From Antedon bifida (Eukaryota > Echinodermata > Crinoidea > Comatulida > Antedonidae): a stretch of DNA of 64,000 nt. Below, one piece after another: positions 36,825 through 61,600 of the stretch. Positions within the stretch are counted from its first letter, which is position 1, and every line of letters begins with the position of its first letter. Position numbers and translations under genes: made by a program. A model generated the notes under the pieces. It had not been told where the DNA came from and made no database searches. It was given only the letters and a program-made list of their open reading frames with translations. The DNA is taken from NCBI GenBank assembly GCA_963402885.1, contig OY727099.1, forward strand, positions 17,007,001 through 17,071,000. Direction: 5' to 3'.

Positions 36825-37392
36825 TGTAATGTAATGATATACTTTTATAATTTCTATCAACCTTTGTATTTGCATTTGAGTTCACAAATTTGACCCAGAA
36901 AGTCCAGAGGAGAGTTTGTCCAGATGTTTTTTAATGACCATTAGTTTATAATAGAATCCCTAAAGAAAACACTTAGTTTAACATTTGACCTATCCCATCG
37001 TTAAACCAGGAGAGATTGACACTATTTAAGTACAGATTTGACAGTGTCATCCATCATTGAAATACCTTATTATACCGTTAATCACTCCCACTTAAACACC
37101 CCTGGACCAACTTAGAACCAATCGTTACCCTCACAGATTACGTAGTGACATATGTAAATGAACCGAAGCCGATATACTCCCAAGTTTCAGAAGAGCCCAG
37201 ACACACCTTACAGCCAATTTACAGAGCGCACACCTTACAGCCAGCATCACTAATCCTCTGTTCCTTAGTCAGTTAGTTAGCTGCATCATTATTATTGTAT
37301 CAAGTATATTCTGAATAAATAATATATGTTACGACAGCAAAGCGAGTAAAGAGTCTTCCTTACAAAGTACCTCATAACAACATTATATTACA
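36825..37392 (+). repeat. 5' LTR of gypsy element
   Basis: 568 bp, TGTAAT...ATTACA. A polyadenylation hexamer AATAAA lies at 37314-37319. I count four differences from the 3' LTR, among them C/T in TTTGCATTTGAG, C/T in CCCACTTAAAC, A/C in CAGCCAATTTAC and A/G in CATTATATTACA. Confidence 0.95.
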
Positions 37393-39118: not shown

Positions 39119-39546
39119 AAAGGGGACTAGATGCCGCCTATAATCTGGCCCCCCATACTAAAAACGACAATTTTAAGGCAAAATACTTAGGGAATTCAGA
39201 TAAGATTGACTTGTTACTTAACCACAGAAATTACGTTAAAGGAAATTTACTAGACGGTAGAAATGTCTTAACTCTATTTGACAGTGGTTCAACTAGAACT
39301 ATAATCTCACAATCGTACGTTAATTCCTCACGTTATTTATCGCGTCTAAAGCCAGTTAAAGTAAACACAACTAAATTTCGATTAGGTAACGGTGACTTCT
39401 TATATGCCAACCACTTAGTGCAATTCGAATTATTTATCCAAGGACACAAATTTAAAATTTCAGCATTAATCGTTAAAAATTTGACAGGTATTGACCTGAT
39501 ACTTGGAACCGAAACATTGTCTGAACTCGACGGTACTTTAAATTAA
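39112..39546 (+). CDS. Aspartic protease region of gypsy pro-pol (ends at in-frame TAA)
   Basis: The frame is -1 relative to gag, open from the gag terminus onward and without a convincing ATG, so it is probably reached by frameshifting at the T5 run. The retropepsin active-site motif LFDSGSTRTIIS is at about 39274-39309 (D-S-G with following S/T), and a downstream GIDLILGTE stretch matches the conserved ILG flap-partner region. The enzyme would cleave the gag-pol precursor. A TAA at 39544-39546, inside an A-rich run, stops this frame although the same frame stays open downstream. I take this as a nonsense mutation in this copy. Confidence 0.85.
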   Translation, partial: FLKRGLDAAYNLAPHTKNDNFKAKYLGNSDKIDLLLNHRNYVKGNLLDGRNVLTLFDSGSTRTIISQSYVNSSRYLSRLKPVKVNTTKFRLGNGDFLYANHLVQFELFIQGHKFKISALIVKNLTGIDLILGTETLSELDGTLN

Positions 39547-40179
39547 AAAAAAAATACTTTTCGCATTAGACCAAAGATTTTTAGCTTTCGTCCAGTACAC
39601 AAGATTTTTCTTAAACCCGGTGATACTAAAACAGTTAAATTAAAAGGAAGGGTTCCCGCCTTCGTACGCAATTCTGATGTTGTTCTACATGCAACTACCC
39701 ATATTTCAAAACTTTGTCCATCAGATATGTTAGTAAAATTACATAGAGGAGAAACCAACATTGATATCACTAACAACACAAACAGAAACGTATCTCTTAA
39801 TACACATCAACCTATCGCGAGCCTTCATTTAACCAACCTTGTAACAGTTACTAACGACCTACCAATTGATAGAATAAGGTTAACCAATGACAACGCAAAC
39901 AAGTACCCACATTTAGAACGTACAGACCCATTGCTATCTTTAACCGAGGAAGAAATAATCAGAAAACAAGTTGATTTAAAAGACAGCGTTTTAACACATA
40001 GAGAAAAAGAAGATCTATATAAAACATTACAACAAAACAGAAACGCATTCTCACTATATGGTGAACTATCTAGCTGGCCTAACTTCAAAGCTGACATACA
40101 CCTCTCTAATGATGAACCATTTTTTTTCGACCATACTTCGCGACAGACAAAGACAAACATGTTATTGAGGCCGAATTGA
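39547..40179 (+). pseudogene. Disconnected protease-RT linker segment of gypsy pol
   Basis: Same reading frame as the protease segment, open from the TAA at 39544 to a stop at 40177-40179. It carries the region between protease and RT that is typical of Ty3/gypsy pol. RT-like sequence continues in the -1 frame after a run of eight T (40120-40127), so the break lies at or near this homopolymer. With a nonsense codon upstream and a frameshift downstream, this piece cannot be joined to protease or RT without recoding. It could instead be a sequencing indel in the T run. Confidence 0.8.
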
Positions 40180-43100
40180 ACAAATTAGTCAAACTAGGAA
40201 TCTTAGCAGTAGGACACCAATCGTATACTTCCCCTGTCCTTCTTGTTTCAAAGAAAAATTCAAAAGATAAAAGAGTTGTCACAGACTTCCGCTATCTAAA
40301 TTCCAGGATAAAACGTATTAATCACCCATTCCCCTTATTAGCCGAAACTTTGAAAACAATAGGTAACGCTAATGCACAGATTCTTAGCGTTATTGATTTG
40401 AAATCAGCGTTTCACTGTGTACCATTAGCCGAACATGCCCAACAATATACAGGTATAGCTTCATATCATGGTGGAAAGCATTATTATTATAAGAGATTAG
40501 CACAAGGATTAAACGTTTCACCAGGTATATTTCAAGCAAAGATTGACGAAATCTTAAATGAAATCCCAAATTCTAGAGAATTCTGTATCGCCCATCATGA
40601 TGATATTATTTTATTTAGCCAAGACAAATTCGCTCATAAGCAGCACCTCGTTTCCGTTTTACAAGCCCTACAATCAAATGGTTTTAGAATTTGTCCAAAG
40701 AAATGTAAGTTATTTAAGAATAAAGTGCAATATATGGGACACACCATCCTGATTAATTCTTCAGGACACGCATGTATCACACCATTAGGCGACAGGTGTG
40801 CAGCTATCCGAAATTTGCCAGTCCCACGAACCCATAAAGAAACTAAACGATTTATTGGTGCAGTAAATTATGTATCCCATTTTTTCCCTCAAATACAATC
40901 AATTTTACGTCCGTTACATACACTCGCAAGTAAACGCCGAAAATTTGTTTGGTCTACTGAACACCAGAAAGCATTTGACGAAATTAAACAATTAATGGTT
41001 AAACCACCTACTCTTCAAATGCCTAGAAAAGAAGGTAGATTTACGCTATATAGCGACACTTCAAGAACCGCAACAGGTTCATATTTAACACAAACAGTAA
41101 ACGGCAAAGAACACATAATAGGTTATTATTCCAAAATCTTACCACAAGCCTGTCAACGATATAGCGTCACAGAATTAGAGTTATTCGGACTTTACATTAA
41201 TGTTTCAGCATTTCGACACTTACTAAAGGGTTGCGAATTTGATGCATTCGTAGACCACTCAGCAATTGTACAAATTTGGAATTCAAAAGATCAGCCATGT
41301 ACACCCCGTTTACAGAAACTAATATTACGATTGTCCGGATACATTTTCCAAATTGGTTATAAGAAAGGAACTGAATTAGTTTTAGCAGATTTTCTCTCCC
41401 GTGCCCCTCGTGACGACGATTCCGAAATTGATCAAGTTGTACCCATTGCATTTAATATTACAGAGACTGAATCTCTTAACCCGATTACAAACACATCTAC
41501 TAGTAGCAGACCAGTAACAAGGTCTTACGCTAAGAAAATGGGAATAAATATACCTGACCTACATAAATCCAAACCAGTACAAACGCCTGTCATTAATCAA
41601 AATCCAGTGACAACAAACACGCGACCTACACCTCAACCTACCGCTACACCACAGATAATCACGAGACAACAAACAAACGCACGTCGATCACCACCTATCG
41701 TAACGCCACCCCCAATACGTAATGTAAACATTCGACAACCTCCAGAGGAAAGACTAGTAGACAAAAATAAGCAAAGCCAAGATACTACACATCGAAATGT
41801 ACCAGTTGAATTGTATACATCGCCCAAACCACTAGTACCCAACATAACTGAATTTAAATCAGCACACATCCCAAAACAACAAGACTTAGATAGATTAATG
41901 GATGTTATTCAAAGAAAGATAATTAGAGATTATAACCTCCCAGTAGATGTTAAACAATTACGTGTTGAACAAGAAACTTCACCATTTTTTAAGCCAGTTT
42001 ACGATTATTTAGCTCATGATATCCTTCCAGCTGATAAGAAAGCAGCTCGTGCAGTTCAGAATAAGTCAGAGCAGTACATATTGTGCAACGGTTTACTATT
42101 CCGTTTATTTTTCCAAGATAAAGGTGGAGAATTTGTATTGCATTTAGCTGTTCCTGAAAACTTAGCCGAGACTATTATTTCTCAGTATCACGACAATTTG
42201 TTAAGTAGCCACCAAGGTACGATGCGTACTTACCTCACTATTAGGAAATTATTTTACATGCCCCTTATGTTCGAGAAAGTCAACAATTATACTCAAGCGT
42301 GTCTTAGATGTCAACAATTTCGTCCCAAAACCGATAAATTACGTCCTTTACACGATCGAGTACCAGCAACTTACCGTCCCTTTCATACACTCAGTCTAGA
42401 TTTCAAGAGTATGCCAACATCACCTTCAGGTTTTAAACATATTATGGTAGTATGTGATGAAATTACTAGATTTTTGATTTGTGTACCTTTGAAATCCATT
42501 GATGCCGAAACAATTTGTGAAGCACTAATTCAAAAGGTAATCAGTATTTTTGGACCCCCATCTCGTCTTATTTCAGATGCAGCCACCTCCCTTACAGGAA
42601 AATTATTAACACTCTTATGTAACACCCTTAACATTGATAGGAAAATCATCAGCGTCCATAATCACGGTAGTTTACAAGTTGAACGTCATATCCGCACTGT
42701 ATCGGACCTGTTAAAGGTCAACCTTAACCAATTCGGAACAGATTGGGTTAGATTTGTATCAACAACATGTTATGCTTATAACTCGTTTTCATCCCCACAT
42801 CTAGGTAACCACTCCCCTTACGAATTAGTTTTTGGCCGCCAACCTCCAAGTTTGACCTCATTAGCATTTAACCCCGTTTCAGGATTGTCTCATTCCTATG
42901 AAGAATACTTTGAACACCTCAAGAAGAAATTTCAAAACATTTCACAGACAATGCTACAATTACAGCGAACACAACAAAACGTCCAAAACTCGAAAATTTC
43001 CCAACGCTTAGAGAAAAGTCCAATTTACTCGGTAGGACAACTCGTATATCTATACAAGCCAACATCATCCTCACTAACGGCAAATTCAAAGAAAATCGCC

Positions 43101-43808
43101 GCAGAATGGGTCGGACCATTAGTAATTCATGAAGTACTAGACAGAACACACTACATCCTAGCAACGATTAAAGGAGAAATACTTCGCGACGTATTCAATT
43201 ATAACAGACTGAAACCTTGTTTTATGAGAACGCCTAAAGAACGCAAAAATTTTACACATCTCCAAAAACTTAAGCAATTGTTGAATGAACCCACTGATAA
43301 TAACGAGAAAGTTCAGAATACCATTAATGTAGTAAATGACGAAACCAATTTTGAATTTGTCGACGAACATGATAGGACACCCACCCAATTGCAATCAGAT
43401 ACCTTTACACACCCAACTAAAGTAGAACCCATTAACTTGCAACCTTACATTAACTGTGTAGAGAATAACATGGGATTAGCAGCCCCATTCCAAATGAAAG
43501 AAGAACAAATTAAGGAACAAACTAATTTAATTATGACAGCACCTAATGATTCAAATATGACATTAAACCGAGGTAGATTTAAAGCAGGACATTTCCAAGT
43601 TTTAGTTTCGTATTCTAAACCGACTTCAGCCAAATGTAACACCGATAAAACAAAACACGAATCCAATGTTCGAAAATTTTGGTGGAATATCGACAGATAT
43701 AACGATACAGATAAATTGATTAAAGAGATTATTAATGATAAACAGATACCGATAAGTGGATCACCAAAACGATTCATAAAACGTTTGTATAATGCAACAA
43801 GTTACTGA
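40176..43808 (+). CDS. Reverse transcriptase-RNase H-integrase of gypsy pol (5'-truncated frame)
   Basis: About 1210 codons, starting with a non-ATG codon only because the frame opens here; the true frame enters from the T run at 40120-40127. RT: VTDFRYLNSRI, SVIDLKSAFH with the first catalytic Asp (residue 74), LAQGLNVSPGIFQ, and HHDDIILFS at residues 140-148 where the family normally has Y-x-D-D. RNase H: FTLYSDTSRTATGS, the TELELFG region, and DH near DHSAIVQIW. Integrase: zinc module with H...H and CLRCQQ, then DDE positions in HTLSLDFKSM, RLISDAATS and LQVERHI, followed by a GPY/F-like module with EWVGPLVI. It would copy element RNA into DNA and insert it. The C-terminal ~200 residues are unassigned. 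Confidence 0.93.
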   Translation: MNKLVKLGILAVGHQSYTSPVLLVSKKNSKDKRVVTDFRYLNSRIKRINHPFPLLAETLKTIGNANAQILSVIDLKSAFHCVPLAEHAQQYTGIASYHGGKHYYYKRLAQGLNVSPGIFQAKIDEILNEIPNSREFCIAHHDDIILFSQDKFAHKQHLVSVLQALQSNGFRICPKKCKLFKNKVQYMGHTILINSSGHACITPLGDRCAAIRNLPVPRTHKETKRFIGAVNYVSHFFPQIQSILRPLHTLASKRRKFVWSTEHQKAFDEIKQLMVKPPTLQMPRKEGRFTLYSDTSRTATGSYLTQTVNGKEHIIGYYSKILPQACQRYSVTELELFGLYINVSAFRHLLKGCEFDAFVDHSAIVQIWNSKDQPCTPRLQKLILRLSGYIFQIGYKKGTELVLADFLSRAPRDDDSEIDQVVPIAFNITETESLNPITNTSTSSRPVTRSYAKKMGINIPDLHKSKPVQTPVINQNPVTTNTRPTPQPTATPQIITRQQTNARRSPPIVTPPPIRNVNIRQPPEERLVDKNKQSQDTTHRNVPVELYTSPKPLVPNITEFKSAHIPKQQDLDRLMDVIQRKIIRDYNLPVDVKQLRVEQETSPFFKPVYDYLAHDILPADKKAARAVQNKSEQYILCNGLLFRLFFQDKGGEFVLHLAVPENLAETIISQYHDNLLSSHQGTMRTYLTIRKLFYMPLMFEKVNNYTQACLRCQQFRPKTDKLRPLHDRVPATYRPFHTLSLDFKSMPTSPSGFKHIMVVCDEITRFLICVPLKSIDAETICEALIQKVISIFGPPSRLISDAATSLTGKLLTLLCNTLNIDRKIISVHNHGSLQVERHIRTVSDLLKVNLNQFGTDWVRFVSTTCYAYNSFSSPHLGNHSPYELVFGRQPPSLTSLAFNPVSGLSHSYEEYFEHLKKKFQNISQTMLQLQRTQQNVQNSKISQRLEKSPIYSVGQLVYLYKPTSSSLTANSKKIAAEWVGPLVIHEVLDRTHYILATIKGEILRDVFNYNRLKPCFMRTPKERKNFTHLQKLKQLLNEPTDNNEKVQNTINVVNDETNFEFVDEHDRTPTQLQSDTFTHPTKVEPINLQPYINCVENNMGLAAPFQMKEEQIKEQTNLIMTAPNDSNMTLNRGRFKAGHFQVLVSYSKPTSAKCNTDKTKHESNVRKFWWNIDRYNDTDKLIKEIINDKQIPISGSPKRFIKRLYNATSY

Positions 43809-44753
43809 TTTAATTTTTTGCAAGAATTTTTTTTAATTACGACATTTGCTAAATTAATGATAGCATAGTCTACGTATTTGATTTGATTTGTTTAATAACG
43901 ATGTGATTTCAGTTAAAAGGAGAATTGAAATTATGATTAAGTATTGATTTTGTAACGAGTTTGATAATGATTAATTTTGAATTTTGATGATCGATATATT
44001 GAGATATTGAAAAGAACGACAATCATTTTGTAACAAATATTTTGTTTAACCTTTGAGTCGTTAATCTCAAGCATTAATTAATTAATTTATATACAAGAAC
44101 AGGAGATTTTCTTAGTACTTTTAATTGTATTTTTTGACATTGAGTACAAAAGTCGAATTTGTCGACCGATTGAAATCGTAATTACCTGTGAATATAAATG
44201 CTTAAATCGATAAAGTTGTGATGATAACGATATATTGTGGATAAGTTTGTGTCAACGGGACACACATTTGTTTATTTTAAAGTTTTAAGTGATTAAGTTT
44301 GATAATTTGAGTCAATTATTGATTTTAGGCTAATCAGCCACAGTTTTCAGTTTTATGTTTTAATTTGATTGATATATGTTTAAAGGCCAATAGAACGCGA
44401 TAAGTCGTCGCGCTATTCATTGTACATATTATTTTTTAAGTTTTGTATCTTTTTTTAATTTGACCAATTGACGTTTGATTAACGCTCGAGGGAGGAGTAG
44501 AGCCAATTACGAGCTATATATTATAAACAACCGGACGGGCAGACTTTAAATAAGTCGCACGAGCGTATCAACTATACAGTATTTACTGTCGGATTATAAC
44601 GTTAACATAATTTTGTGAGATTATTATAATAGTTGAACTTGAAATTTTATTGTTTGAGTTTGATATCGTTTATTTAGTTTGATTTTGTTTATTTTAAATA
44701 CATTTTAATTTTTATTTATCGTAAATTTAGTCAATTCCAAATTGCCCCCAAAA
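43809..44753 (+). other. Non-coding spacer between pol and third ORF of gypsy element
   Basis: About 945 bp, AT-rich, with no open frame of note. The 3' part contains pyrimidine/AG combinations, for example ending ACTATACAG near 44579, that could be a splice acceptor for a subgenomic mRNA of the third ORF; this is inference only. No env-like frame or other recognisable feature is seen. Confidence 0.6.
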
Positions 44754-45635
44754 ATGGTATCCGAAAAGCTTGATGTTACAAAGTTATGCATAAAACACAA
44801 AATTTCAATGACGCCCCTGTCCACAGAATGTGCCCTTATAAAGAAGATAATCCTTTACCAAAGCGAACAAAACGTAATTCTCCATATTACCAAAATGATG
44901 CCTTTTACTTTAGATTCCTTGAAAAGAGTTTTATTATTCCTTTGCGACATCCGTCCAGCAGACCAACTGACAAACCTCAAATTAAATACCCTTTTACACA
45001 TTGGCAGTTATTTATGTTGTTTCGACAAAATGTCCTCCCCCATTATAGACTACATTTGGAAACATAAGAGTACACCAGCCCTACTTGACTTTTCCGCAAT
45101 CGAACTTTCCATTAATTTAAACGGCATCGCCACTTGTATACCAAACACACATGAATTTCACAGACAACATATTTATTCTATGACCCTCCTGCTCTTAGCA
45201 ATTACAAAAGATATCAAAGCCCCACAGTGTAAAGCATTTTTTTCAAGAGTCCGACAACAAACAGGCATCATACCCCAAGACGAATTAAAACCTAGCGAAC
45301 ACTCACCATTTGGATATGTTGTAACTAAATATAAGAAAAAACTATATTCGCACATCCGTAACATGCAGTACCTGGAAAATAAATACAAAGATACCCCCTG
45401 CCAAATTTGTAAATGTAACCCCGAAATTAAAAACTTTCATACTGATTGTACAATCAACAAATGCTGCGGCACACTTTTTCACCAAAATTGCCAACAAATA
45501 TCCTTCAACAAGGGATATCAATGCTTGAATTGCGGTATGGTATATTTCAATGAGATCCCTTACACCACTTCCTACATGTTGGACATACCGTGGAGTGAAT
45601 CCCGTTTTTATCGATTATATAAACCCAACGATTGA
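44754..45635 (+). CDS. Third ORF of gypsy element, zinc-finger C-terminus, function unknown
   Basis: 293 residues from the ATG at 44754; the frame is open 12 bases further 5' but without ATG. I do not recognise a family. There is no signal peptide or strong transmembrane pair, so it is not an obvious envelope protein. Residues 1-200 are helical and Leu/Ile-rich. The C-terminal ~90 residues hold a Cys/His cluster of PHD/RING/treble-clef type: CQICKC, then CTINKCC, LFHQNC and CLNC. It occupies the position where errantivirus-like elements keep env or accessory genes. The frame is intact even though pol is broken. It may encode a nucleic-acid- or chromatin-binding accessory protein. Confidence 0.75.
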   Translation: MVSEKLDVTKLCIKHKISMTPLSTECALIKKIILYQSEQNVILHITKMMPFTLDSLKRVLLFLCDIRPADQLTNLKLNTLLHIGSYLCCFDKMSSPIIDYIWKHKSTPALLDFSAIELSINLNGIATCIPNTHEFHRQHIYSMTLLLLAITKDIKAPQCKAFFSRVRQQTGIIPQDELKPSEHSPFGYVVTKYKKKLYSHIRNMQYLENKYKDTPCQICKCNPEIKNFHTDCTINKCCGTLFHQNCQQISFNKGYQCLNCGMVYFNEIPYTTSYMLDIPWSESRFYRLYKPND

Positions 45636-46659: not shown

Positions 46660-46909
46660 CTATTTTGTGCACTTTGATGTTTTGTGTGAAAAGTTTCATC
46701 GAAATGCACAAAATGGTCTAAAACGTCTCCAAATACGATATTAAGCTATTGTATGCACTTTGTTGTTTTTGTGTGAAAAGTTTCATCGAAATGCTTAAAA
46801 TGGTTTAAAACGTCTCCAAATCCGTTTTGAAGCTATTCTAAGCACATTCGTGTTTTTATGTTAACAAGTTTTTTCGAAATGCACAAAATGGTCTAAAACG
46901 TTTCCAAAT
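46660..46909. repeat. Satellite 1 fragment between the two transposons
   Basis: About 250 bp of satellite. It matches 53021-53260 including the rare variant ATGCTTAAAATGG, so the two stretches are copies of one higher-order unit. It begins with the gypsy target duplicate CTAT and ends with AAAT (46906-46909), the target site of the next transposon. Confidence 0.93.
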
Positions 46910-46957
46910 CACGGTATCTCCGTAATGGACAAAAAGCTGATTATTAGAGAGGGCGCG
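46910..46957 (+). repeat. Left terminal inverted repeat, RSS-like with 12-bp spacer
   Basis: Heptamer-like CACGGTA (46910-46916), 12-bp spacer, nonamer-like ACAAAAAGC (46929-46937), then AGAGGGCGCG ending at 46957. The V(D)J consensus is CACAGTG and ACAAAAACC with 12- or 23-bp spacers; the match is 5 of 7 and 8 of 9. The repeat lies downstream of the transposase gene. Just inside it, GAGGGCGC...GCGCCCTC forms an 8-bp stem. Confidence 0.88.
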
Positions 46958-48073
46958 CTATGTATAGAGTGCGCCCTCTACATTTAAAGGGTCAAAACAC
47001 GCTTGATTGGCGTTGGGCTGTAACCGTACTTTAAATGACCAATGATGTGCCTTAGATAAATAAAATCAACTGAATATTCATGAGAAACGTTATGAGGTAA
47101 TCACTGAACCGCCCAAAAAAATAATTTGCCGAATCTGTTCACGATGTATGGAAGTAAACGAAGAATGAAAATCAGTCTTTATTTTTTCTGTTATTTTCAC
47201 CAAAATTTTGATGATTTTTGTTATTTCGGCAGGTAATGTAATAAAGGCGTTATTTATATACACATTCTATTTCTAGAATGTTTAACTATTATCAAACAAG
47301 TATATAAAAAATTAGGGTTCCGTATCGGTTAGTATTTTTGCAATACGAGTTTGAACATGTGGGTGAAATACACGTGTTGAAGTTGAACTCGCATGGCGTA
47401 GGACGTGTTGGTAGCATAGAGTACAGTAGGGGTATCTTAATTGGTGGGACTATTACCGCTAGTAAACACAATTGAAATGAATAAGAAATGGTTGTTCGTA
47501 ATTCAACATTTTATTAGACCTAGGCCTGTTAGAACTTAGTGTCTAGTAGTAGGCCTAGGCTAGCCGGCTAGCCTACTAAATAGTAAAAATAGGCCTAGCT
47601 AGGCCAAGCTAGAGAGATAGTAGCCTCCTCTCTCTGGCTTAAATATACAGGATCAGGATATACAAATATTGAATACAGGTTAGGTATACTTCTACTTAGT
47701 CAAATGATGACTCAATATAATCAATACTAATGTTAAATATAGCCTAGGCCTACTGAGTTTTAGGCATAGGCTAGTAATAATAGTATATAAACAAAATAAT
47801 GAGCAAAATAATGTGGATACATTAGCTGATTGAATTACCAACAATAAAAACAACATATGTCGTTTTTTTTTAGACTGGTTGATATTTCTATTTACAATGA
47901 CAATTTTATACATAGTTAAGTTGTAGTTGTATATGGTAATGCGCAATGATTCCATTTTTTTAACTATAATCAACTTGATATCTGGCGTAGGAAAGATTTT
48001 TGTTTCATCATATCATATGCAATGAATTAAATTTTACAACATAGAAAATTAACCGTTGTCAAGTTAATATGCA
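46958..48073 (-). other. 3' flank of RAG1-like gene inside transposon
   Basis: AT-rich, with a CTAG-rich patch at about 47518-47625 made of TAGGCCTAG and GCTAGCCGGCTAGC palindromes and direct repeats. A possible polyadenylation hexamer on the minus strand lies at 47510-47515. The only longer frame (minus, 47692-47973) has no recognisable motif and is probably chance. No RAG2-like kelch repeats or PHD finger are visible in any frame. Confidence 0.6.
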
Positions 48074-51000
48074 TTATAATCCGACCACCTCATTCTTCAA
48101 CTGAGTTTGTACCTGAAAATAAATATATAAATATAAGTTTTTACAAATAATATACAAGCTACATATTTCAATTATTATGTTTTTTCCATTAATTACAAAT
48201 TTTGAAAATAACTTTTGCTCACAATCTTTCCTCAATCTTTTTTTAGGCTTGACAACCTTGCTATTGATTTGTGGACTCGTCAACGTAAGATGATTCCGCA
48301 TAATGGAAATCATCTTCCTCATTTCGGACTGCACACCATATACGCTTCTTGCTTGTCTATTAAATGCAGCATGTATCTGTTCACCGCCTTGTTCGCTAAG
48401 CAACCCCAAACCAATCTGCCACCTCTTTAATGTTGGTACCACATGCTTCTCAAGCATGTGCATTTTTGGAGTGATGCTGTGGCCATACTTCCGGAACTCT
48501 CCGACAAAATCATGGATGTTGTTGTCTACAGCATAATAAAAATAGTATGTTGTTTATGATTTTGTTATCGTCATTTATAAATTAGTAACCATTGTTTTTA
48601 ATAAACTGTATACCTACCAATTTCTTTGATTTCCTCAGTAGTAAGCGATCTGGTATGGTTAATCTTCTGCTCCACAATTGAATATTTGCTAAACAACGGA
48701 ATGTATTTGTCCTTCATGGTATCTAATTCAAGTTGCAGATCCTTAGCAATACCTATAGGCAGGTCCATTGACTGCTCGTCAAAAGTTGACTGGCATGCGG
48801 CGATCAAATGTGATATGATGTTTATCTGTATTTAGGAGCAAACATTTCACAGTTAGTAAACAACCGGGCAAAAAAAACTAAAAAGCATTTTATTAGTCTA
48901 CTATAATTTTATTATGGAATGTGCTCAGTCTACCTTGCAACATTTATGAACATGATTGCCGATAAAGGCTTTTCCATGATATGCTTGCCTGTCGACTTTA
49001 TGCTTCTTCAGCACATTGTCCATTGCTGCAGTTAATGGCCCAGCACCCACCTTAAAATCATCTTTCTCTATTGATTTTTCCTATGAAATTTAACAAACAA
49101 TCTGTCAACATTGCATATAGAATTAATTAAATTAAAATAATCTTTATTAACAATACCATATATAGTATGAGAGAGTATGCAAATTTAATCATTAATCATT
49201 GTTTATTAGTTTTATTTGTATTTGCAGATTGTCATATTTCGAGAGCAGTGAATACCTAATGAGTTTGTGGCACCCTCCCTGTGCCTGTTTCTGCAATGTA
49301 TGTGGTTTCATTTTATTACTTACAAGTTCTCTAATTGCTTGCAATTTTGTTGTCAATGCTGTTGACTTTAGTAATTGCGAGATGGGCATGTTGTCTTCCA
49401 TGTTGGAAATGTCGATCTGCAGTTTGTTTATTTTTTCTCTGCAGGCTTCATTTAGAGCTGTTTTCTTTGCAATTGTAATTTCAAAGTTGTTCAGTTCTTC
49501 TGATGGATTTGATTGTCTGAATTTTAAAAAATAATACAACTTAAAATACAAAATGGGCTTCTTTCTAGTATATTGATTTTTTAAAAGTATGTAATGTTAC
49601 CTGAGTTTATATATTTTTCGGTCCAAGTTATGGGCATCCGATTCTAATAGGTCGTACAATTTCTTGAATACTCCTAGCGAAATATGCAGGCAAGGAATTG
49701 AAACCTGTAAAACAATTTAATTAAAATGGATTAGAATAATGCATTGCAGTTAAAATGCCTTGTATTGCGTATTTTTTGGTAATATAGTTTTATTTAAAAC
49801 TTACATGGTCAATATCAATGTTTACCATTGGCTCTCGAACAACATTTCTTGATATGTCTTTGCTAGTTTCTTCATGAGAGCCATGGGCAACAAATTGCTT
49901 ATAGTCCTCCCGGAGTGACATCATGTTTCTGTCTTCCTTGCTAATGCCACTGTTCATGTGGTCTTTGGTGGCGTGGCAAAACAAACAACCATATCGGCCT
50001 AAGAAATAAAGTCAATAAAGAACAATCTACAAACTGTAGGAATACTATTTAATTTAAACTCTCTGTAACATGTATATATTTGTTTTTACTTACCATTAGG
50101 TGAAAGAAGGCCATATATCCGCACAAGGAAGTCATAATCGCCGAAAAAGAACAGTCTGATATTGTACCCCCTATGATGAAGAATAAGAATTTATCAAAAT
50201 TAAAAGGGTAAGAGTTTCTTCATTCGAATAAAAAATGTATTACATAAAATAGTTCATTCTTACCTCCAAACTTGTCCATGCAAGTCTGTTATTTCTTTGA
50301 CTATTAATGGCAGAGTCCTTGCCAGATTCACTGTATAATCTGGTGCATTAAACATCAAAACCACCAATATGTTCTTCAGTGCATTGGGCTTATCTATGCT
50401 ACAAATCTGGATCTCAAATTTGGTAGAGCCGCCACCTTTGTCGCCACCAAATTTTAGGAAAATTTCTCCATCATTTGGTTTAATGTTCCCTAATCTAAAA
50501 CAAACAAATTATAAAAATGAATTCTTGGAAAATGTTTATGTTTTGCTAATAAACTTTAGCATTTATATTAAAAATTAAACTTACTGGTAATGACTCTCCA
50601 AGTAAGAGAATACAAAAGATTGTATGTTTTTGATCCTTACTACTGGTGCTTCAATTTCCTCAAAACCATTCTCCCCACTGGCAGTTTCATTTTTGAACAC
50701 TAGTTTCACCATTTCTCCATGTACATAATCCTGCACTATCAAATTCTGCATGGAACGCATTTTACGTTCAGAGGAAAGTGTTCCTGGTGGAAGATACCTG
50801 TAAAAGTATTGATAGTACAGTTAGTAATAAAGGTTTCATATCACTATATGCTGCTTTTGTTTCTATAAAATGAACTACAATTTGTATGTAGTCTGCTTTG
50901 TATTGATTATTTTTCTTGAATGAAATATTTATATATATTTAAAAATTGTTATTTACCTCCTCAGTTTACGAAACTGCTGCCAACCAAGATCACAATCAGT

Positions 51001-52147
51001 CTTTAATGCGAGACCTACATCTACATCAGGCTGTGTTTGTTGTGTTGGGCTTTGCTTCACGCCACCATGTATGCTTTTCTCCAACCGTTGAAATTCTGCA
51101 GACCTTCTGGTAATAGTTTTTTTACAAATACCTTGTGTCTTGTTGGATGTCTGTATAACACTGACTTTCAATGGCTGCAAAATTAAAGAAACCTGCTGTA
51201 TGATTTACTAAAAAATGTACAAAAATAATAATATGCATTAGATATTAAAAAAGTATTTAAATACATGCTCTATGTATTATTAATAGTTTGGATTAATGTA
51301 ATTTAAAAGTACTTACTCTGCCCTTTGTCATCAAGTTCAGTTCTTTATTCTTTTTTAGGGATTTGTGCAAGACATTATGTGCTAATTTGTGAAGTTCATC
51401 TGGTATGACCTCATTAATTTCACTGTTGATTTCAGTTACTGCTTTCTGTATTTTCTTCACCTTTTGTTGGCACTTGGATGTACATTCATGACTATCACAT
51501 TGATGATATAGCAATGTGTCTGAGCATTTTTTACAAGTCAGTTCTACACCCAATAGTGACTGTTTACTCAATTCAGATGCCTTTGTGACGTCAAACACAT
51601 TTACAGGACAAGAACATTTTATACAAGGAATTACATCACATTTAAGGGTACTAAATAATTGCGACAAACAGTGTGCACAGAATGTGTGGCCACATTTAGT
51701 TTCAGACATGGACAAAGACATAACATGTTTACAAATGGCACACATAAACCAATCTTTGGAAGCATCTTTTAATTTAAATTGACTGGGTAATGATGGCAAA
51801 TTCGTATTAGTAGATGAAAATGTACCATTGTTGTTTCTTTGGAAAGTTGTGTGTTTTCTTTTTAAGCCTTTGTTTTTAATATTTGTAAATAAATAACATG
51901 ACAAACATGACTCTGTTGTGTGTTCTGTCCAGTTGTATGTGTTTATCGGTTGAAATTTGTATGCCTTTGACTCGCATGTAGTGCAAACAAACTGGGGATG
52001 AATGCTACTAATATTAGTGTCTAAGTTATTGTGGTGTGAAATGTCTGGCCTAAGATTTGCAATCTTACATTTTTTTTCGGAATTTCTAAATTTATTGCCA
52101 CACAATCTACAAAGCCACAACATTGAACTAGAGTGAAGAGACAACAT
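48074..52147 (-). CDS. RAG1-like transposase, 12 exons, ~927 aa, apparently intact
   Basis: Exons on the minus strand, read 5' to 3': 52147-51317, 51174-50957, 50797-50585, 50494-50264, 50170-50094, 49998-49805, 49704-49601, 49516-49324, 49080-48934, 48825-48618, 48525-48197, 48112-48074. All introns are GT-AG and phases match at every junction, giving 2784 nt including the stop with no interruption. Order: RAG1-type N-terminal zinc modules (residues 13-84), C3HC4 RING (136-178), a further zinc finger (205-226), a basic GRP/TRR region (276-301), then the RNase-H-like core. Candidate catalytic residues are D439 (LKFGGDKGGG), D509 (FFFGDYDFLV) and E854 (SEQGGEQIH). Zinc ligands are C528-x2-C531 and H828-x4-H833. 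It should cut and join the element's ends. Least certain are the exon 8 donor and the last intron, which is in frame throughout. Confidence 0.88.
48197..50494 (-). other. Exons 4-11: RNase-H-like catalytic core of RAG1-like transposase
   Basis: The core is spread over eight exons. Exon 4 carries D439 in GGDKGGG. Exon 5 carries GDYDFLVRIYGLL (D509, with D511 as alternative). Exon 6 opens with GRYGCLFCHATKDH, a CxxC followed by basic/His residues as in the RAG1 zinc-binding insertion. Exon 7 gives VSIPCLHISLGVFKKLYDLLE. Exon 9 gives AFIGNHVHKCCK. Exon 11 carries PKMHMLEKH (HxxxxH) and SEQGGEQIHAAFNR, whose second Glu (E854) aligns by spacing with the third catalytic residue of RAG1. These motifs also match Chapaev transposases as I remember them. 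Confidence 0.85.
51317..52147 (-). other. Exon 1: RAG1-type N-terminal region with RING finger
   Basis: One 831-nt exon encodes residues 1-277. Visible in order: CRLCGNKFR (C13, C16), SIHPQFVCTTC (C55, C58), ESCLSC (C81, C84), a GLKRK motif at residues 94-98, the RING C136-x2-C139-x12-C152-x-H154-x2-C157-x2-C160-x14-C175-x2-C178, and a CKKC...CDSHEC...C finger. The same order of zinc modules, basic motif, RING and finger is characteristic of vertebrate RAG1 upstream of its core, where the RING has E3 ubiquitin ligase activity. The exon closes on a KGR codon triplet that joins PLK of exon 2. Confidence 0.9.
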
Positions 52148-52685
52148 TTTGACAGTTTACTTACATTGATACACAAAATACACTAAATCAGTACAGTAAA
52201 GAACGTCAGAATAGGCCTAGTGAGTGTAAATTTATTGGTATGTCATTGACCGATTGCGTAAAATTAAGCCGATACGGAAATCTGATTTTTTATTGAAATA
52301 CAGTATGACCTTGGCCTAGATGGCTGGCGAAGTCCCTGATTTTCAATACGCAATATTTTTTGTGTGGCAGACGATTTTCCGAGTTCATATTTAGCGCTAC
52401 CTCGATTTCGTGGTGGCGCTGTTTGTCCAGGGTCGCTTAAATACTTCACAAGTAAAACACTACAAAATAATACGAAAACCAATTTTATGCGAAATTTTCT
52501 TTTAATAACCAGTTTATTAAACATATATAAAGTGAAAAACTAATGTAACTTTGTTTAAATTAATTTATATAAACCATGGTAAGCCATTTACTACGGGTAT
52601 ACCTCGATCTAAAAATGATAAACAATCCTCACGACTCGCTCTTCACGCTCCATTGAACACGATGTTTATAGTAACTATGCGGATT
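52148..52685 (-). promoter_or_regulatory. 5' flank and presumed promoter of RAG1-like gene
   Basis: About 540 bp lie between the start codon and the right terminal repeat. No TATA box is clear. An 86-codon ATG frame on the minus strand (52524-52264) has a hydrophobic N-terminal stretch (IKLVFVLFCSVLLVKYL) but no known domain. It could be an upstream ORF, a small membrane peptide or chance. No splice evidence links it to exon 1. Confidence 0.45.
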
Positions 52686-52743
52686 CGCGCCCTCTATAGT
52701 ACGAGGCTTTTTGTCTCAAAATGATATTTACGAAGATACCGTG
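52686..52743 (-). repeat. Right terminal inverted repeat, RSS-like with 22-bp spacer
   Basis: Read inward on the minus strand: CACGGTA (52743-52737), 22-bp spacer, ACAAAAAGC (52714-52706), then AGAGGGCGCG ending at 52686. Relative to the left end, 10 bp are added within the spacer while the flanking blocks are conserved. This repeat lies upstream of the gene. Confidence 0.88.
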
Positions 52744-55080
52744 AAATGCAATTTGAAGCTGTTTTGTGCACTTTGATGTTTTGTGTGGAAAGTTTTATAG
52801 AAATGCACAAAATGGTCTAAAAGTCTCTAAATACGATATTAAGCTATTTTATGCACTTTGATGTTTTTGTGTGAAAAGTTTCATAGAAATGCACAAAATG
52901 GTCTAAAACGTGTCCAAATCCGTTTTGAAGCTATTCTAAGCACTTTGGTGTTTTTATGTTAACAAGTTTTTTCGAAATGCCCAAAATGGTCTAAAACGTC
53001 TCCAAATGCGATTTGAAGCTATTTTGTGCACTTTGATGTTTTGTGTGAAAAGTTTCATCGAAATGCACAAAATGGTCTAAAACGTCTCCAAATACGATAT
53101 TAAGCTATTGTATGCACTTTGTTGTTTTTGTGTGAAAAGTTTCATCGAAATGCTTAAAATGGTTTAAAACGTCTCCAAATCCGTTTTGAAGCTATTCTAA
53201 GCACTTTCGTGTTTTTATGTTAACAAGTTTTTTCGAAATGCATAAAATGGTCTAAAACGTCTCCAAATACGATATTAAGCTATTTTATGCACTTTTATGT
53301 TTTTGTGTGAAAAGTTTCATAGAAATACACAAAATGGGCTCTTTTGTGCACTTTGATTTTTTGTGTAAAAAGTTTTATAGAAATGCTCAAAATGGTCTAA
53401 AACGGTTTCAGATATGATTTTAAGGACTTTGATGTTTTTGTGTAACCAAGTTTCATCGAAATGCACAAAATGGTCTAAAACGTCTCCAAATGCGATTTGA
53501 AGCTATTTTGTGCACTTTGATGTTTTGTGTGAAAAGTTTCATCGAAATGCACAAAATGGTTTAAAACGTCTCCAAATGCGATTTGAAGCTATTTTGTGCA
53601 CTTTAATGTTTTGTGTGAAAAGTTTGATCGAAATGCTCAAAATGGTCTAAAATGGTTTCAAATGTGATTTTAAGCACTTTGATATTTTTGTGTAATCAAG
53701 TTTCATCGAAATGCACAAAATGGTCTAAAACTTCTCCAAATGCGATTTTGAAGCTATTTTGTGCACTTTGATGGTTTTGTGTGAAAAGTTTCATAGAAAT
53801 GCACAAAATGGTCAAAAACGTCTTCAAATACGATAATAACCTGTTGTATGCACATTGATGTTTTTGTGTGAAAAGTCTCATCGAAATCCACAAAATGGTC
53901 TAAAACGTCTCCAAATCCGTTTTGAAGCTATTCTAAGCACTTTGGTGTTGTTATGTTACCAAGTTTATTCGAAATGCACAAAATGGTCTTAAACGTCTCC
54001 AAATGCGATTTGAAGCTATTTTGTGCACTTTGATGTTTTGTGTAATGAAACGCACAAAATGGTCTAAAACGTCTCCAAATGCGATTTGAAGCTATTTTGT
54101 GCACTTTTATATTTTGTGTGAAAAGTTTTATCGAAATGCTCAAAATGGTCTAAAACGGTTTCAAATGTGATTTTAAGCAATTTGATGTTTTTGTGTGAAA
54201 AGTTTAATCGAAATGCACAAAATGGTCTAAAACGTTTCCAAATGCGATTTGAAGCTGTTTTGTGCACTTTGATGTTTTGTGTGGAAAGTTTTATCGAAAT
54301 GAACAAAATTGTCTAAAACGTCTCCAAATACGATATTAAGCTATTGTATGCACTTTGTTTTTTTTGTGTGAAAAGTTTCATCGAAATGCTCAAAATGGTC
54401 TAAAACGTCTCCAAATACGATTTGAAGCTATTTTGTGCACTTTGATGTTTTTGTGTGAAAAGTTTCATCGAACTGCACAAAATGGTCTAAAACGTTTCCA
54501 AATGCGATTTGAAGCTGTTTTGTGCACTTTGATGTTTTGTGTGGAAAGTTTTATCGAAATGCTCAAAATGGTCTAAAACGGTTTCAAATGTGATTTTAAG
54601 CAATTTGATGTTTTTGTGTGAAAAGTTTAATCGAAATGCACAAAATGGTCTAAAACGTTTCCAAATGCGATTTGAAGCTGTTTTGTGCACTTTGATGTTT
54701 TGTGTGGAAAGTTTTATAAAAATGCACAAAATGGTCTAAAACGTCTCCAAATACGATATTAAGCTATTTTATGCACTTTGATGTTTTTGTGTGAAAAGTT
54801 TCATAGAAATGCACAAAATGGTCTAAAACGTGTCCAAATCCGTTTTGAAGCTATTCTAAGCACTTTGGTGTTTTTATGTTAACAAGTTTTTTCGAAATGC
54901 CCAAAATGGTCTAAAACGTCTCCAAATGCGATTTGAAGCTATTTTGTGCACTTTGATGTTTTGTGTGAAAAGTTTCATCGAAATGCACAAAATGGTCTAA
55001 AACGGTTTCAAATGTGATTTTAAGCAATTTGATGTTTTTGTGTGAAAAGTTTCATCGAAATGCACAAAATGGTCTAAAAC
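52744..55080. repeat. Satellite 1, tandem array block 3
   Basis: Satellite resumes with the AAAT duplicate and the same monomers. The first ~108 bp (52744-52852) match 36717-36824, left of the gypsy element, including a rare 3-bp shortening CTAAAAGTCTC. A block with GAAGCTGTTTTG and GTGGAAAG variants recurs at 54061-54760. The array ends at AAAACG (55080), where satellite 2 begins without spacer. Confidence 0.95.
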
Positions 55081-55210
55081 GATAATTATGCTCTAATATT
55101 GTCATTTATGCACATTTATTTTGATAACATCATCTTATAGCGCCATAATAACTAGTTATGTCAAAAAATAAAAAGGTCGAAATTTGGGATTTTTTCGAAA
55201 ATTTCACTGC

Positions 55211-55227
55211 GGGGGGGGGGGGGGGGG
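55211..55227 (+). repeat. G17 homopolymer in satellite 2
   Basis: Seventeen G in a row replace the usual GGGGGACC of the satellite 2 monomer. This is an expansion of the G5-6 block and the only such tract in the array. It could form a G-quadruplex or be an assembly/base-calling artefact. Confidence 0.9.
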
Positions 55228-57120
55228 TGCCTAAGTAATTTTTTCGAAAAATGTCAAAAATTTCCACTTTTTAAACTTCAATAATTATGATATAATTTTA
55301 CCATTTATGCACATATATTGTTGTAATATCATCTTATAGAGCCATAGTAACTAGTTGTGTAAAAAAATAATAAGGTCTAAATTTTGCCATTTTTCGAAAA
55401 TTCACTGCGGGGGACAAAAGGATTTTTTTCGAAAAAATAGCAAAAATGTCCACTTTTTTAAATTATATAATTATGCTATAATATTGCAATTTATGCACAT
55501 ATATTGTGTTAACATCATCTTATGGAGCCACAAAAACTACTTATGTCAAAAAATAAAACGTTCATAATTTGAACTTTTTTCGGAAATTTTACTGCGGGGG
55601 ACCGAAGAAATTTTTCCATAAAATGTCCAAAATTTCCACTTTTTAAAATTCGATAATTATGCTATAATATTGCCATTTATGCACATATATTGTTGTAACA
55701 TCATCTTATAGAGCCATAGTAACTAGTTGTGTAAAAAATAAAAAGTTCTAAATTTTGTCATTTTTCGAAAATTTCACTGCGGGGACCAAAGGAATTTTTT
55801 TCGAAAAATGGCAAAAATGTCCACTTTTTAAAATTCGATAACTATGCTATAATATTGTCATTTATGCACATTTATTTTGATAAAATCATCTTATAGAGCC
55901 ATAATAACTAGTTATGTCAAAAAATAAAAGGGTCATAATTTGAACATTTTTCGAAAATTTCACTTCGGGGGACCGAAGAAATTTTTCCATAAAATGTCAA
56001 AAATTTCCACTTTTTAAACTTAAATAATCATGCTATAATATTGCCATTTATGCACATATATTGTTGTAACATCATCTTATAGAGCCATAGTAACTAGTTG
56101 TGTAAAAAAAAAAAAGGTCTAAATTTTGCTATTTTTCGAAAATTTCACTGCAGGAGACCGAAGAAATTTTTCCATAAAATGTCAAAAATTTCAATTTTTT
56201 AAACTTCAAAAATCATGCTATAATATTGCCATTTATGCACATATATTGTGTTAACATCATCTTATAGAGCCATAGTAACTAGTTGTGTAAAAAAATAAAA
56301 GGCACTAAATTTTGCCATTTTTCGAAAATTTAACTGCGGGGCTCCGAAGGAATTTTTTCGAAAAATGACAAAATTGTCCCCTTTTTAAAATTCGATAACT
56401 ATGCTATAATATTGTCATTTATGCACATTTATTTTGTTAACATCATCTTATAGAGCCATAATAACTAGTTATGTCAAAAAATAAAAGGGTCGAAATTTTG
56501 CAATTTTTCGAAAATATCACTGCTGAAGTAATTTTTTCGAAAAATGTAAAAAATGTCCACTTTTTGAAATTCGGTAACTATGCTATATTATTGTCATGTA
56601 TGCACATATATTGTGTTAACATCATCTTATGGAGCCATAAAAACTAGTTATGTCAAAAAATAAAAGGGTCAGAATTTGACAATTTTATGAAAATTTCACT
56701 GCGGGGGACCGAAGGAATTTTTTCAAAAAATGTCAACAATTTCCACTTTTTAAACTTCAAAAAATATGTTATAATATTGCCATTTATGCACATATATTGT
56801 TGTAACATCATCTTATAGAGCCATAGTAACTAGTTGTGTAAAAAAATAAAAAGTTCTAAATTTTGCCATTTTTCGAAAATTTCACTGCAGGGGACCAAAG
56901 GAATTTTTTTCGAAAAATGGCAAAAATGTCCACTTTTTAAAATTCGATAACTATGCTATAATATTGTCATTTTTGCACATTTATTCTGATAACATCATCT
57001 TATAGAGCCATAATAACTAGTTATGTCAAATTTTCCGAACTTTTTAAACTTCAATAATCATGCTATAATATTGCCATTTATGCACATATATTGTTGTAAC
57101 GTCATCTTATAGAGACATAG

Positions 57121-58611
57121 TAACTAGTTGTGTAAAAAAATAAAAAGGTTTAAATTTTGCCCTTTTTCGAAAATTTCACAGCGGGGGACCAAAGGAATTT
57201 TTTTCGAAAAATTGCAAAAATGTCCACTTTTTAAAATTCGATAACTATGCTATAATATTGTCATTTATGCACATACATTTTTATAACATCATCTTATAGA
57301 GCCATAATAACTAGTTATGTCAAAAAATAAAAGGGTCGAAATTTGGCAATTTTTCGAAAATTTCACGGCGGGGGGAGTGAAGGAATTTTTTCGAAAAATG
57401 TCCAAAATTTCCACTTTTTAAAATTCGATAATTATGCTATAATATTGCCATTTATGCACATATATTGTGTTAACATCATCTTATAGAGCCGTAGTAACTA
57501 GTTATGTCAAAAAATAAAAGGGTCGAAATTTGACCATTTTTTTGAAAATTACACTGCGGGGGACCAAAGGAATTTTTCGAAAAATGGCAAAAATGTCCAC
57601 TTTTTAAAATTCGATAACTATGCTATAATATTGTCATGTATGCACATATATTGGGTTAACATCATCTTATGGAGCCATAAAAACTAGTTATGTCAAAAAA
57701 TAAAAGGGTCAGAATTTGACAGTTTTTCGAAAATTTCACTGCGGGGGACCGAAGGAATTTTTTCAAAAAATGTCAACAATTTCCACTTTTTAAACTTCAA
57801 TAATTATGTTATAACATTGCCATTTATGCACATATATTGTTGTAAAGTCATCTTATAGAGCCATAGTAACTAGTTGTGTAAAAAAATAAAAAGGTCTAAA
57901 TTTTGCCATTTTTCGAAAATTTCACAGCGGGGGACCAAAGGAATTTTTTCGAAAAGTTGCAAAAATGTCCACTTTTTAAAATTCGATAACTATGCTATAA
58001 TATTGTCATTTATGCACATAAATTTTTATAACATCATCTTATAGAGCCATAATAACTAGTTATGTCAAAAAATAAAAGGGTCGAAATTTGGCAATTTTTC
58101 GAAAATTTCACGTCGGGGGGACTGAAGGAATTTTTTCGAAAAATGTCCAAAATTTCCACTTTTTAAAATTCGATAATTATGCTATAATATTGCCATTTAT
58201 GCACATATATTGTGTTAACATCATCTTATAGAGCCGTAGTAACTAGTTATGTCAAAAAATAAAAGGGTCGAAATTTGACCATTTTTTTGAAAATTACACT
58301 GTGGGGGACCAAAGGAATTTTTCGAAAAATGGCAAAAATGTCCACTTTTAAAAATTCGATAACTATGCTATAATATTGTCATGTATGCACATATATTGGG
58401 TTAACATCATCTTATGGAGCCATAAAAACTAGTTATGTCAAAAAATAAAAGGGTCAGAATTTGACAGTTTTTCGAAAATTTCACTGCGGGGGACCGAAGG
58501 AATTTTTTCAAAAAATGTCAACAATTTCCACTTTTTAAACTTCAATAATTATGTTATAACATTGCCATTTATGCACATATATTGTTGTAAAGTCATCTTA
58601 TAGAGCCATAG
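57121..58611 (+). repeat. Four-monomer (~745 bp) higher-order duplication in satellite 2
   Basis: The rare variants TTTTTTTGAAAATTACACTG (57537 and 58282), ATATTGGGTTAACATC and the CGGGGGGAG/GGGGGGACTG block recur in the same order at a 745-bp offset. Two adjacent four-monomer blocks are therefore near-copies. Confidence 0.75.
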
Positions 58612-61600
58612 TAACTAGTTGTGTAAAAAAATAAAAAGGTCTAAATTTTGCCATTTTTCGAAAAATTAACTGCGGGGGACCAAAGGATTTTTTTCGAAAA
58701 ATGACAAAAATGGCCACTTTTTAAAATTAAATAATTATGCTATAATATTGCAATTTATGCACATATATTTTGTTAACATCATCTTATGGAGCCATAAAAA
58801 CTAGTTATGTCAAAAAATAAAAGGGTCATAATTTGAACATTTTTCGAAAATTTCACTGCGGGGGATAAAAGAAATTTTTCCATAAAATGTCACAAATTTC
58901 CACTTTTTAAACTTCAATAATCATGCTATAATAATGCCATTTATGCACATATATTGTTGTAACATCATCTTATAGAGACATAGTAACTAGTTGTGTAAAA
59001 AAATAAAAAGGTCTAAATTTTGCCATTTTTCGAAAATTTCACTGCAGGGGAATAAAGGAATTTTTTTCGAAAAATGGCAAAAATGTCCACTTTTTAAAAT
59101 TCGATAACTATGCTATAATATTGTCATTTATGCTCATTTATTCTGATAACATCATCTTACAGAGCCATAAAAACTAGTTATGTCAAAATATTCGAAAATT
59201 TCACTGTGGAGGGACTGAATTTTTTTTTTTGAAAAATGTCCAAAATTTCCACTTTTTAATATTTGATACTTATGCTATAATATTGCCATTTATGCACATA
59301 TATTGTTGTAACATCATCTTATAGAGCCATAGTAACTAGTTGTGTAAAAAAATAAAAAGGTACAAATTTTGCCATTTTTCGAAATTTTCACTGCGGGGGA
59401 CCAAAGGATTTTTTTCGAAAAATGGCAAAAATGTCCACTTTTTAAAATTCAATAATTATGCTATAATATTGCAATTTATGCACATATATTGTGTTTACAT
59501 CATCTTATGGAGCCATAAAAACTAGTTATGTCAAAAAATAAAAGGGTCATAATTTAAACATTTTTCGAAAATTTCACTGCAGGGGACCGAAGACATTTTT
59601 CCACAAAATGTCAAAAATTTTCACTTTTTAAACTTCAATAATCATGCTATAATATTGCCATTTATGCACATATATTGTTGTAACATCATCTTATAGAGCC
59701 CATAGTAACTAGTTGTGTAAAAAAATAAAAAGGTATAAATTTTGCCATTTTTCGAAAATTTCATTGCGGTGGACTAAAGGATTTTTTTCGAAAAATGGCA
59801 AAAATGTCCACTTTTTAAAATTCGATAATTATGCTATAATACTGCAATTTTGGACATATATTTTGTTAACATCATCTTATGGACCATAAAAACTAGTTAT
59901 GTCGAAAAATAAAAGGGTCATATTTTGAACATTTTTCGAAAAATTCACTGCGGGAGACCGAAGAAATTTTTACATAAAATGTCAAAAATTTCCACTTTTT
60001 AAACTTCAATAATCATGCTATAATATTGCCATTTATGCACATATTTGTTGTAACATCATCTTATAGAGCCATAGTAACTAGTTGTGTAAAAAAATAAAAA
60101 GGTCTAAATTTTGCCATTTTTCGAAAATTTCACTGCGGGGGATTAAAGGAAATTTTTTCGAAAAATGGCAAAAATGTCCACTTTTCAAAATTCTATAACT
60201 ATGCTATAATATTGTCATTTATGCTCATTTATTCTGATAACATCATCTTATAGAGCCATAAAAACTAGTTATGTCAAAAAATAAAAGGGTCATAATTTGA
60301 ACATTTTTCGAAAATTTCACTGCGGGGGACCGAAGAAATTTTTCCATAAAATGTCAAAAATTTCCACTTTTTAAACTTCAATAATCATGCTATAATATTG
60401 CCATTTATGCACATAATACTGTTGTAACATCATCTTATAGAGCCATAGTAACTAGTTGTGTAAAAAAATAAAAAGGTCTAAATTTTGCCATTTTTCGAAA
60501 ATTTCACTGCGGGGGACCAAAGAAATTTTTTCGAAAAATGGCAAAAATGTACACTTTTTAAAATTCGATAACTATGCTATAATATTGTCATTTATGCACA
60601 TTTATTTTGATAACATCATCTTATAGAGCCATAATAACTAGTTATGTCAAAAATTAAAAGGGTCGAAATTTGGCAATTTTTCGAAAATTTCACGGCGGGG
60701 GGACTGAAGGATTTTTTTCGAAAAATATCCAAAATTTCCACTTTTTAAAATTCGATAATTATGCTATAATATTGCCATTTATGCACATTTATTTTGATAA
60801 CATCATCTTATAGAGCCATAATAACTAGTTATGTCAAAAAATAAAAGGGTCGAAATTTGGCAATTTTTCGAAAAATGTTTAAAATTTCTAACTTTTAAAA
60901 TTCGATTATTATGCTATAATATTGCCATTTATGCACATATATTGTGTTAACATCATCTGATGGAGCTATAAAAACTAGTTATGTCAAAAAATAAAAGTGT
61001 CAGAATTTGACAATTTTTCGAAAATTTCACTGCGGGGGACCGAAGGAATTTTTTCAAAAAATGTCAACAATTTCCACTTTTTAAACTTCAATAATTATGT
61101 TATAATATTCCCATTTATGCAAATATATTGTTGTAACATCATCTTATAGAGCCATAGTAACTAGTTCTGTAAAAAAATAAAAAGGTCTAAATTTTGCCAT
61201 TTTTCGAAAATTTCACTGCGGGGGACCAAGGGATTTTTTTCGAAAAATTGCAAAAATGTCCACTTTTTAAATTTCTATAATTATGCTATAATATTGCAAT
61301 TTATGCATATATATTGTGTTAACATCATCTTATGGAGCCATAAAAACTAGTTATGTCAACAAAAAAAAGTGTCATAATTTGAACATTTTTCAAAAATTTC
61401 AATGCGGGGGACCGAAGAAATTTTTCCATAAAATGTCAAAAATTTTCACTTTTTAAAATTCAATAATCATGCTATAATATTGCCATTTATGCACATATAT
61501 TGTTGTAACATCATCTTATAGAGCCATAGTAACTAGTTATGTCAAAAAATAAAAGGGTCATAATTTGAACATTTTTCGAAAATTGCACTGCGGGGGACCG

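Follow-up and report, generated by a model that had tools for sequence, protein, structure and literature searches.

The locus described here raises the question of whether the signals used by RAG1, the vertebrate enzyme that cleaves antibody genes, have counterparts outside the RAG and Transib groups. It lies in a window of 64,000 nucleotides from the crinoid Antedon bifida (assembly GCA_963402885.1, contig OY727099.1, positions 17,007,001 to 17,071,000, forward strand), whose own numbering is used below. An 87-base-pair (bp) satellite was interrupted by the interval 46910-52743, an element of 5,834 bp with AAAT flanking both ends. The element is likely a full-length cut-and-paste Chapaev transposon that transposed very recently, and its two unequal ends resembled vertebrate recombination signal sequences (RSSs), with a nonamer-like block set 12 bp inward of the terminal 7-mer at one end and 22 bp at the other. 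These blocks, and an identical second copy, go beyond the first-pass annotation of this DNA. The origin of the 12/23 signal has been difficult to determine because the ends of ProtoRAG and Transib are unlike RSSs (PMC8289069). The ends were laid out as follows:

46906..46909, no strand: left copy of the target site duplication (TSD), AAAT, 4 bp
46910..46916, plus strand: heptamer-like CACGGTA, gene-3' end
46917..46928, plus strand: 12-bp spacer
46929..46937, plus strand: nonamer-like ACAAAAAGC, 8/9 to ACAAAAACC
46948..46957, plus strand: inner block AGAGGGCGCG, common to both ends
52686..52695, minus strand: inner block AGAGGGCGCG
52706..52714, minus strand: nonamer-like ACAAAAAGC
52715..52736, minus strand: 22-bp spacer
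52737..52743, minus strand: heptamer-like CACGGTA, gene-5' end
52744..52747, no strand: right TSD copy, AAAT

The gene-3' end was CACGGTA-12-ACAAAAAGC and the gene-5' end CACGGTA-22-ACAAAAAGC, and the GC block AGAGGGCGCG lay beyond the nonamer at an equal distance in both. Compared with the 12/23 RSS, CACAGTG-12 or 23-ACAAAAACC, the heptamer agreed at 5/7 positions and the nonamer at 8/9, with spacers of 12 and 22 bp; the comparison concerns how such ends may work, not membership. The likeness might be due to chance in an AT-rich genome, since it was noticed post hoc and the satellite is rich in CAC-(11-14)-ACAAAA strings. However, in random sequence with the dinucleotide make-up of the element, the probability of an 8/9 nonamer was about 6.65e-4 at 12±1 and 6.4e-4 at 23±1. 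Such a nonamer accompanied 0/112 CACs inside the element, 0/209 in nearby non-satellite DNA and 0/1067 in the satellite. Among 519 CACs at three other loci, one match was found at each spacing, probably at the ends of older copies contained there. The same lengths also recurred in further families with diverged spacers, and chance is a very improbable explanation.

The nearest relative, family 2 (tblastn pieces 35-76% identical), had two copies 98-99% alike, whose ends were CACGGTG-12-ACAAAAAGT (gene-3') and CACGCTG-22-ACAAAAAGT (gene-5'). Between the gene-5' ends of the window element's family (family 1) and family 2, spacer positions 1-5 were 5/5 identical, the remainder 6/17 and the nonamer 8/9. 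Family 3 (C12:16374819-16380536, TSD ATGG, pieces 28-57%) had spacers of 12 and 21 bp, the longer one with ACACAAAGT. Family 4 had a spacer of 12 bp at its gene-3' end; its gene-5' end is tentative: of two weak terminal inverted repeat (TIR) matches it is the better, its heptamer is decayed, and the distance of 22 bp to ACATAAAGT was counted by eye; no TSD was seen for this family. In L045 the gene-5' end only was located (CACAGCT-22-AATAAAAGT), a weak likeness that was left uncounted, and neither L044 nor L047 yielded a complete pair of ends. The layout was clear in three of the five families with both ends located, tentative in one and absent in L046. The L046 element (1384-7898, host C10) carried the TIR CACGTATCCGCG, the TSD CTCA and a GC block whose position differs by 20 bp between the two ends.

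Genome scans were run with patterns built from ends already seen, the gap being free over 30 lengths. The pattern CTTTTTGTC..GAAGANANNGTG gave 13 matches, five at spacer 12 and eight at 22 (reversed control, 0), and CTTTTTGT..GAAACNNCCGTG gave eight, six at spacer 12 and two at 16 (control, 0). Together, the 21 ends comprised 11 at 12, 8 at 22 and 2 at 16. A looser scan gave 22 matches versus 3 in the control, with seven element ends at 12 and eight at 22. Furthermore, family 2 was represented by three copies of 3,365 bp (C11:12649619-12652983, C14:7067487-7070851 and C16:9182732-9186096; TSDs CCAA, TAAT and TTGA), each of which kept one 12 and one 22 end; one was read fully and is internally deleted, and the other two were read at their ends only. 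Because both ends were kept in copies at different sites, the unequal ends travel as a pair. The three copies are also candidates for movement in trans.

The first-pass annotation had noted matching CAC ends and an AAAT duplication inside the satellite, which the exact 16-mer CACGGTATCT(C/T)CGTAA at 46910-46925 (plus strand) and 52728-52743 (minus strand) and the flanks confirmed. The third match of the 16-mer in the window had 3 mismatches, and at least three matches occurred in 4/100 shuffles, so the 16-mer alone is modest evidence. A DUF1280 match, taken as the marker of a Chapaev-type transposase, scored 56.3 bits against a cut-off of 25, and the termini were CAC..GTG with a 4-bp TSD, the length typical of Chapaev. 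TSDs of 4 bp were found in 8/9 insertions with both flanks read (window AAAT, C8 CACG, C11 CCAA, C14 TAAT, C16 TTGA, C14 ACCA, family 3 ATGG, L046 CTCA), the TSD having served as a ranking criterion when L046 and family 3 were found. The 5-bp TSD of RAG-like (RAGL) and ProtoRAG elements was seen neither in the window (AAAT) nor in the second copy (CACG). By its 4-bp TSD and DUF1280 the element is assigned to Chapaev and not to the RAG1/ProtoRAG type; its placement close to the source of RAG1's N-terminal half, suggested in the first-pass annotation, is not supported as stated. Ends in the CMCT clade are mostly CA..TG, with TSDs of 2-5 bp (PMC12730594).

The host genome held a second full-length copy at C8:317944-323777, of 5,834 bp with 0 differences, other flanks and the TSD CACG. 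An identical copy in other sequence with its own TSD indicates very recent transposition. An assembly or segmental duplication without transposition might also explain the identity, but nothing was found in favour of it, the printed 40 bp per side differed and each copy had its own TSD; duplication is highly unlikely. Two older copies were broken by insertions and deletions, one at C8:24.10 Mb, with identities of 87-95% in the aligned pieces, and one at C11:13.14-13.16 Mb, with 86-100%; the right end of the C11 copy is damaged, and that end was left uncounted. Exon changes relative to the decayed copies fell at third codon positions in 66/117, 60/105 and 70/116 cases, the second and third comparisons being overlapping halves of one copy; this excess fits past selection on the protein. 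At least 66 matches to DUF1280 (Pfam) were found in the host genome. Nineteen DUF1280 exons with equal or near-equal scores lay on both strands within 0.65 Mb at C8:21.55-22.21 Mb, where a single Chapaev family is clustered. A domesticated gene was ruled out by the TIRs, the TSDs and the identical second copy, a decayed element by the stop-free frame and the identical copy, and a generic RING gene by the RAG1_imp_bd match and the core fold.

The gene was predicted on the minus strand, with the following exons:

51317..52147, minus strand: exon 1, Chapa/RAG1-type zinc region, RING (about residues 134-180), next zinc finger, KGR(P) motif
50957..51174, minus strand: exon 2, expected place of the nonamer-binding domain (NBD) of RAG1
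50585..50797, minus strand: exon 3
50264..50494, minus strand: exon 4, Asp 439 (GGDKGG), presumed catalytic; the DUF1280 match ends here
50094..50170, minus strand: exon 5, Asp 509 (GDY), presumed catalytic
49805..49998, minus strand: exon 6, C528/C531 zinc pair
49601..49704, minus strand: exon 7
49324..49516, minus strand: exon 8
48934..49080, minus strand: exon 9
48618..48825, minus strand: exon 10
48223..48525, minus strand: exon 11, H828/H833 zinc pair; EQGGE motif (E850/E854)
48090..48112, minus strand: exon 12 (uncertain)

Splicing reproduced the 12-exon GT-AG gene of the first-pass annotation, and its frame was likewise stop-free, over 913 codons and not the stated 927 or so. The last intron is uncertain, and reading through it gives 955 amino acids (aa). 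The exon joins, judged by eye, were spanned by an alignment with 22 relatives, exon 12 lying outside it. Seventeen of these relatives were named echinoderm or Hydra proteins, and a fragment from the crinoid Anneissia japonica showed 63% identity across 22% of the query. A scan of viral contigs confirmed no relative.

In the catalytic core, D439 and D509 were invariant in the 23 aligned sequences, and C528/C531, H828/H833 (H(4)H) and E850/E854 were kept in at least 90% of them. This was in agreement with the Chapaev core motifs, namely two Asp, C(2)C, H(3-4)H and then the last Glu (PMC12730594). The RAG1 fold of the core was modelled on a homologue, and the core of a homologue was about 16% identical to RAG1 in a structural alignment.

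For the N-terminal region, residues 1-110 matched RAG1_imp_bd barely over the cut-off (E=1.4e-5, 25.3 vs 23.3 bits), and 5/23 aligned proteins matched it at E<=1. The RAG1 chain 21wb_A was collinear over CRxCGNxF, SIHP..C..C, W..HT..SC..C and GLKR with a whole-chain E of 0.0056, neither stretch being significant by itself; two PRDM9 zinc-finger entries outscored RAG1 (E=0.00042 and 0.00061) via one repeated motif. In the structure model of exon 1, the RING part had a predicted local distance difference test (pLDDT) score of about 80-92. The model matched LNX, TRAF and then, at rank 7, RAG1 1rmd (E=5.4e-5), among 16 matches with E<=0.001. Since LNX and TRAF ranked above 1rmd, the model by itself does not point specifically to RAG1. 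Sequence RING models stayed below their curated cut-offs for the window protein. The order of the Chapaev RING subgroup, a Chapa domain and then a RING, was recognised through the RAG1_imp_bd match on residues 1-110 and the likeness of the exon-1 model to RING and zinc structures. A protein search with residues 1-230 found no match; because even known relatives were missed, it is no test of kinship to RAG1. In addition, a GGRP/KGRP-like motif was located where the NBD of RAG1 lies, GGRP being presumably the motif of that domain. The only protein recognised combines a RAG1-type N-terminus (zinc modules, RING and an extra zinc finger) with a DDE core of RAG1 fold, the fold being modelled on a homologue, in one apparently intact element, in support of this part of the earlier annotation.

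Several results weigh against this reading of the element and its ends. The more distant L046 had no A-rich nonamer at either end, and all families compared are related and come from one genome. Many scan matches were copies of the same family and the patterns came from the first ends, so the counts are not independent. The spacer-16 pair (C1:16336052 and C8:22556914) is apparently one end within a duplicated segment, and 7/22 looser-scan matches fell off known element ends, at 14, 22, 23, 29, 30, 30 and 34 bp, and were taken for chance. The 12-exon model is a prediction from sequence, and substitutions in exons were slightly higher than in introns in all three comparisons (0.045/0.038, 0.077/0.064 and 0.074/0.061), which by itself does not favour selection on the protein. 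RAG1_imp_bd was reported neither for the whole protein nor for the whole of exon 1. Moreover, the full-length profile did not retrieve RAG1 from PDB sequences, the profile of the NBD region found no RAG1 sequence match in PDB, and that region was poorly modelled.

A-rich binding sites are common, and the inner blocks might be ordinary transposase-binding sites, with the nonamer likeness and the one-turn offset arising independently of V(D)J signals. Such convergence has roughly an even chance of being correct. The inner motifs of L046 differed, and the NBD region had no detectable RAG1 match. The inner element of ProtoRAG is unrelated and stands at 27/31 bp, most Transib ends are symmetric, and Transib TIRs, including HzTransib-type ends, have little or no nonamer similarity (PMC8289069). 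However, a heptamer-like tip, 12-bp spacing, an A5 nonamer and 21-22 bp spacing coincided in three families, with a fourth tentative, and a RAG1-fold core occurred with a RAG1-type N-terminus in one protein. The same fold, N-terminal modules and end layout, together with the GGRP-like motif at the place of RAG1's NBD, would also suit shared ancestry: on this view a bipartite heptamer-nonamer signal with 12/22-23 asymmetry goes far back in the Chapaev-Transib-RAG lineage, and RAG RSSs retained it. This is rather unlikely, with L046 lacking a nonamer, and invertebrate RAGL and Transib, which are nearer to RAG1, being described or proposed as using the terminal 15-17 bp and as symmetric or rather insensitive to TIR asymmetry (PMC7204232; PMC8289069). 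Slightly more doubtful is the fuller proposal that the bipartite asymmetric V(D)J signal is older than RAG and was carried by RING-bearing Chapaevs with RAG1's N-terminal half and core, which may obey a 12/22 rule, the ancestral signal being kept but lost in Transib and ProtoRAG. Convergence and shared ancestry are each compatible with the element being a Chapaev transposon.

For this Chapaev transposon, a transposase dimer would bind each end twice, at the terminal CACGGTR and the inner ACAAAAAGY, and pair one 12-end with one 22-end, about one helical turn apart, as in the 12/23 rule. Cutting would occur at CAC, followed by insertion with a 4-bp stagger. A putative NBD-equivalent may lie near the GGRP/KGRP motif. 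Ubiquitylation through the RING is probably a means of regulating the protein, and RAG2 is probably not needed. Pairing, binding and activity are all predictions drawn from the DNA.

Chapaev elements that carry both Chapa and RING domains were reportedly presented by Kapitonov and Jurka in 2007, and the window element is like them in its DUF1280-type DDE core, Chapa-type zinc region, RING and CAC..GTG termini. The combination of Chapa, RING and core has already been described for two Chapaev subgroups (Kapitonov & Koonin 2015, PMC4411706). No report of asymmetric nonamer-like ends for Chapaev was found in the open-access papers covered, Repbase being outside the scope, and thus such ends appear new. 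Transib, TransibSU and ProtoRAG share the RAG1 core fold, CAC ends and, in some, N-terminal zinc modules. Unlike Transib and ProtoRAG, the window element had a 4-bp and not a 5-bp TSD, and no RAG2-like kelch gene was seen: 46910-48090 held no open frame longer than 106 aa, with 52148-52743 outside the scan and small-exon genes not searched for. Vertebrate RAG1 and its 12/23 RSSs are similar in N-terminal modules, core fold (from the homologue model), heptamer-spacer-nonamer layout and asymmetry of about one turn, but the window gene belongs to a transposon and the longer spacer is 22 or 21 bp, not 23. The N-RAG-TP of Aplysia likewise has a RAG1-like N-terminal region in a transposon (PMC8355894). 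A 12/22 layout conserved in a group outside RAG and Transib, together with a transposase that appears intact and a copy of very recent date, makes it possible to test at the bench how the 12/23 rule arose. The window element is also a candidate for an active transposon whose N-terminus is of RAG1 type.

Satellites of 87 bp and 186/372 bp, at 1-23923, 28437-36825 and 55080-63757, took up the greater part of the window. Long terminal repeat (LTR) retrotransposon-like gag (CCHC) and pol frames, plus a 297-aa frame, interrupted the satellite at 38165-43808 and 44742-45635.

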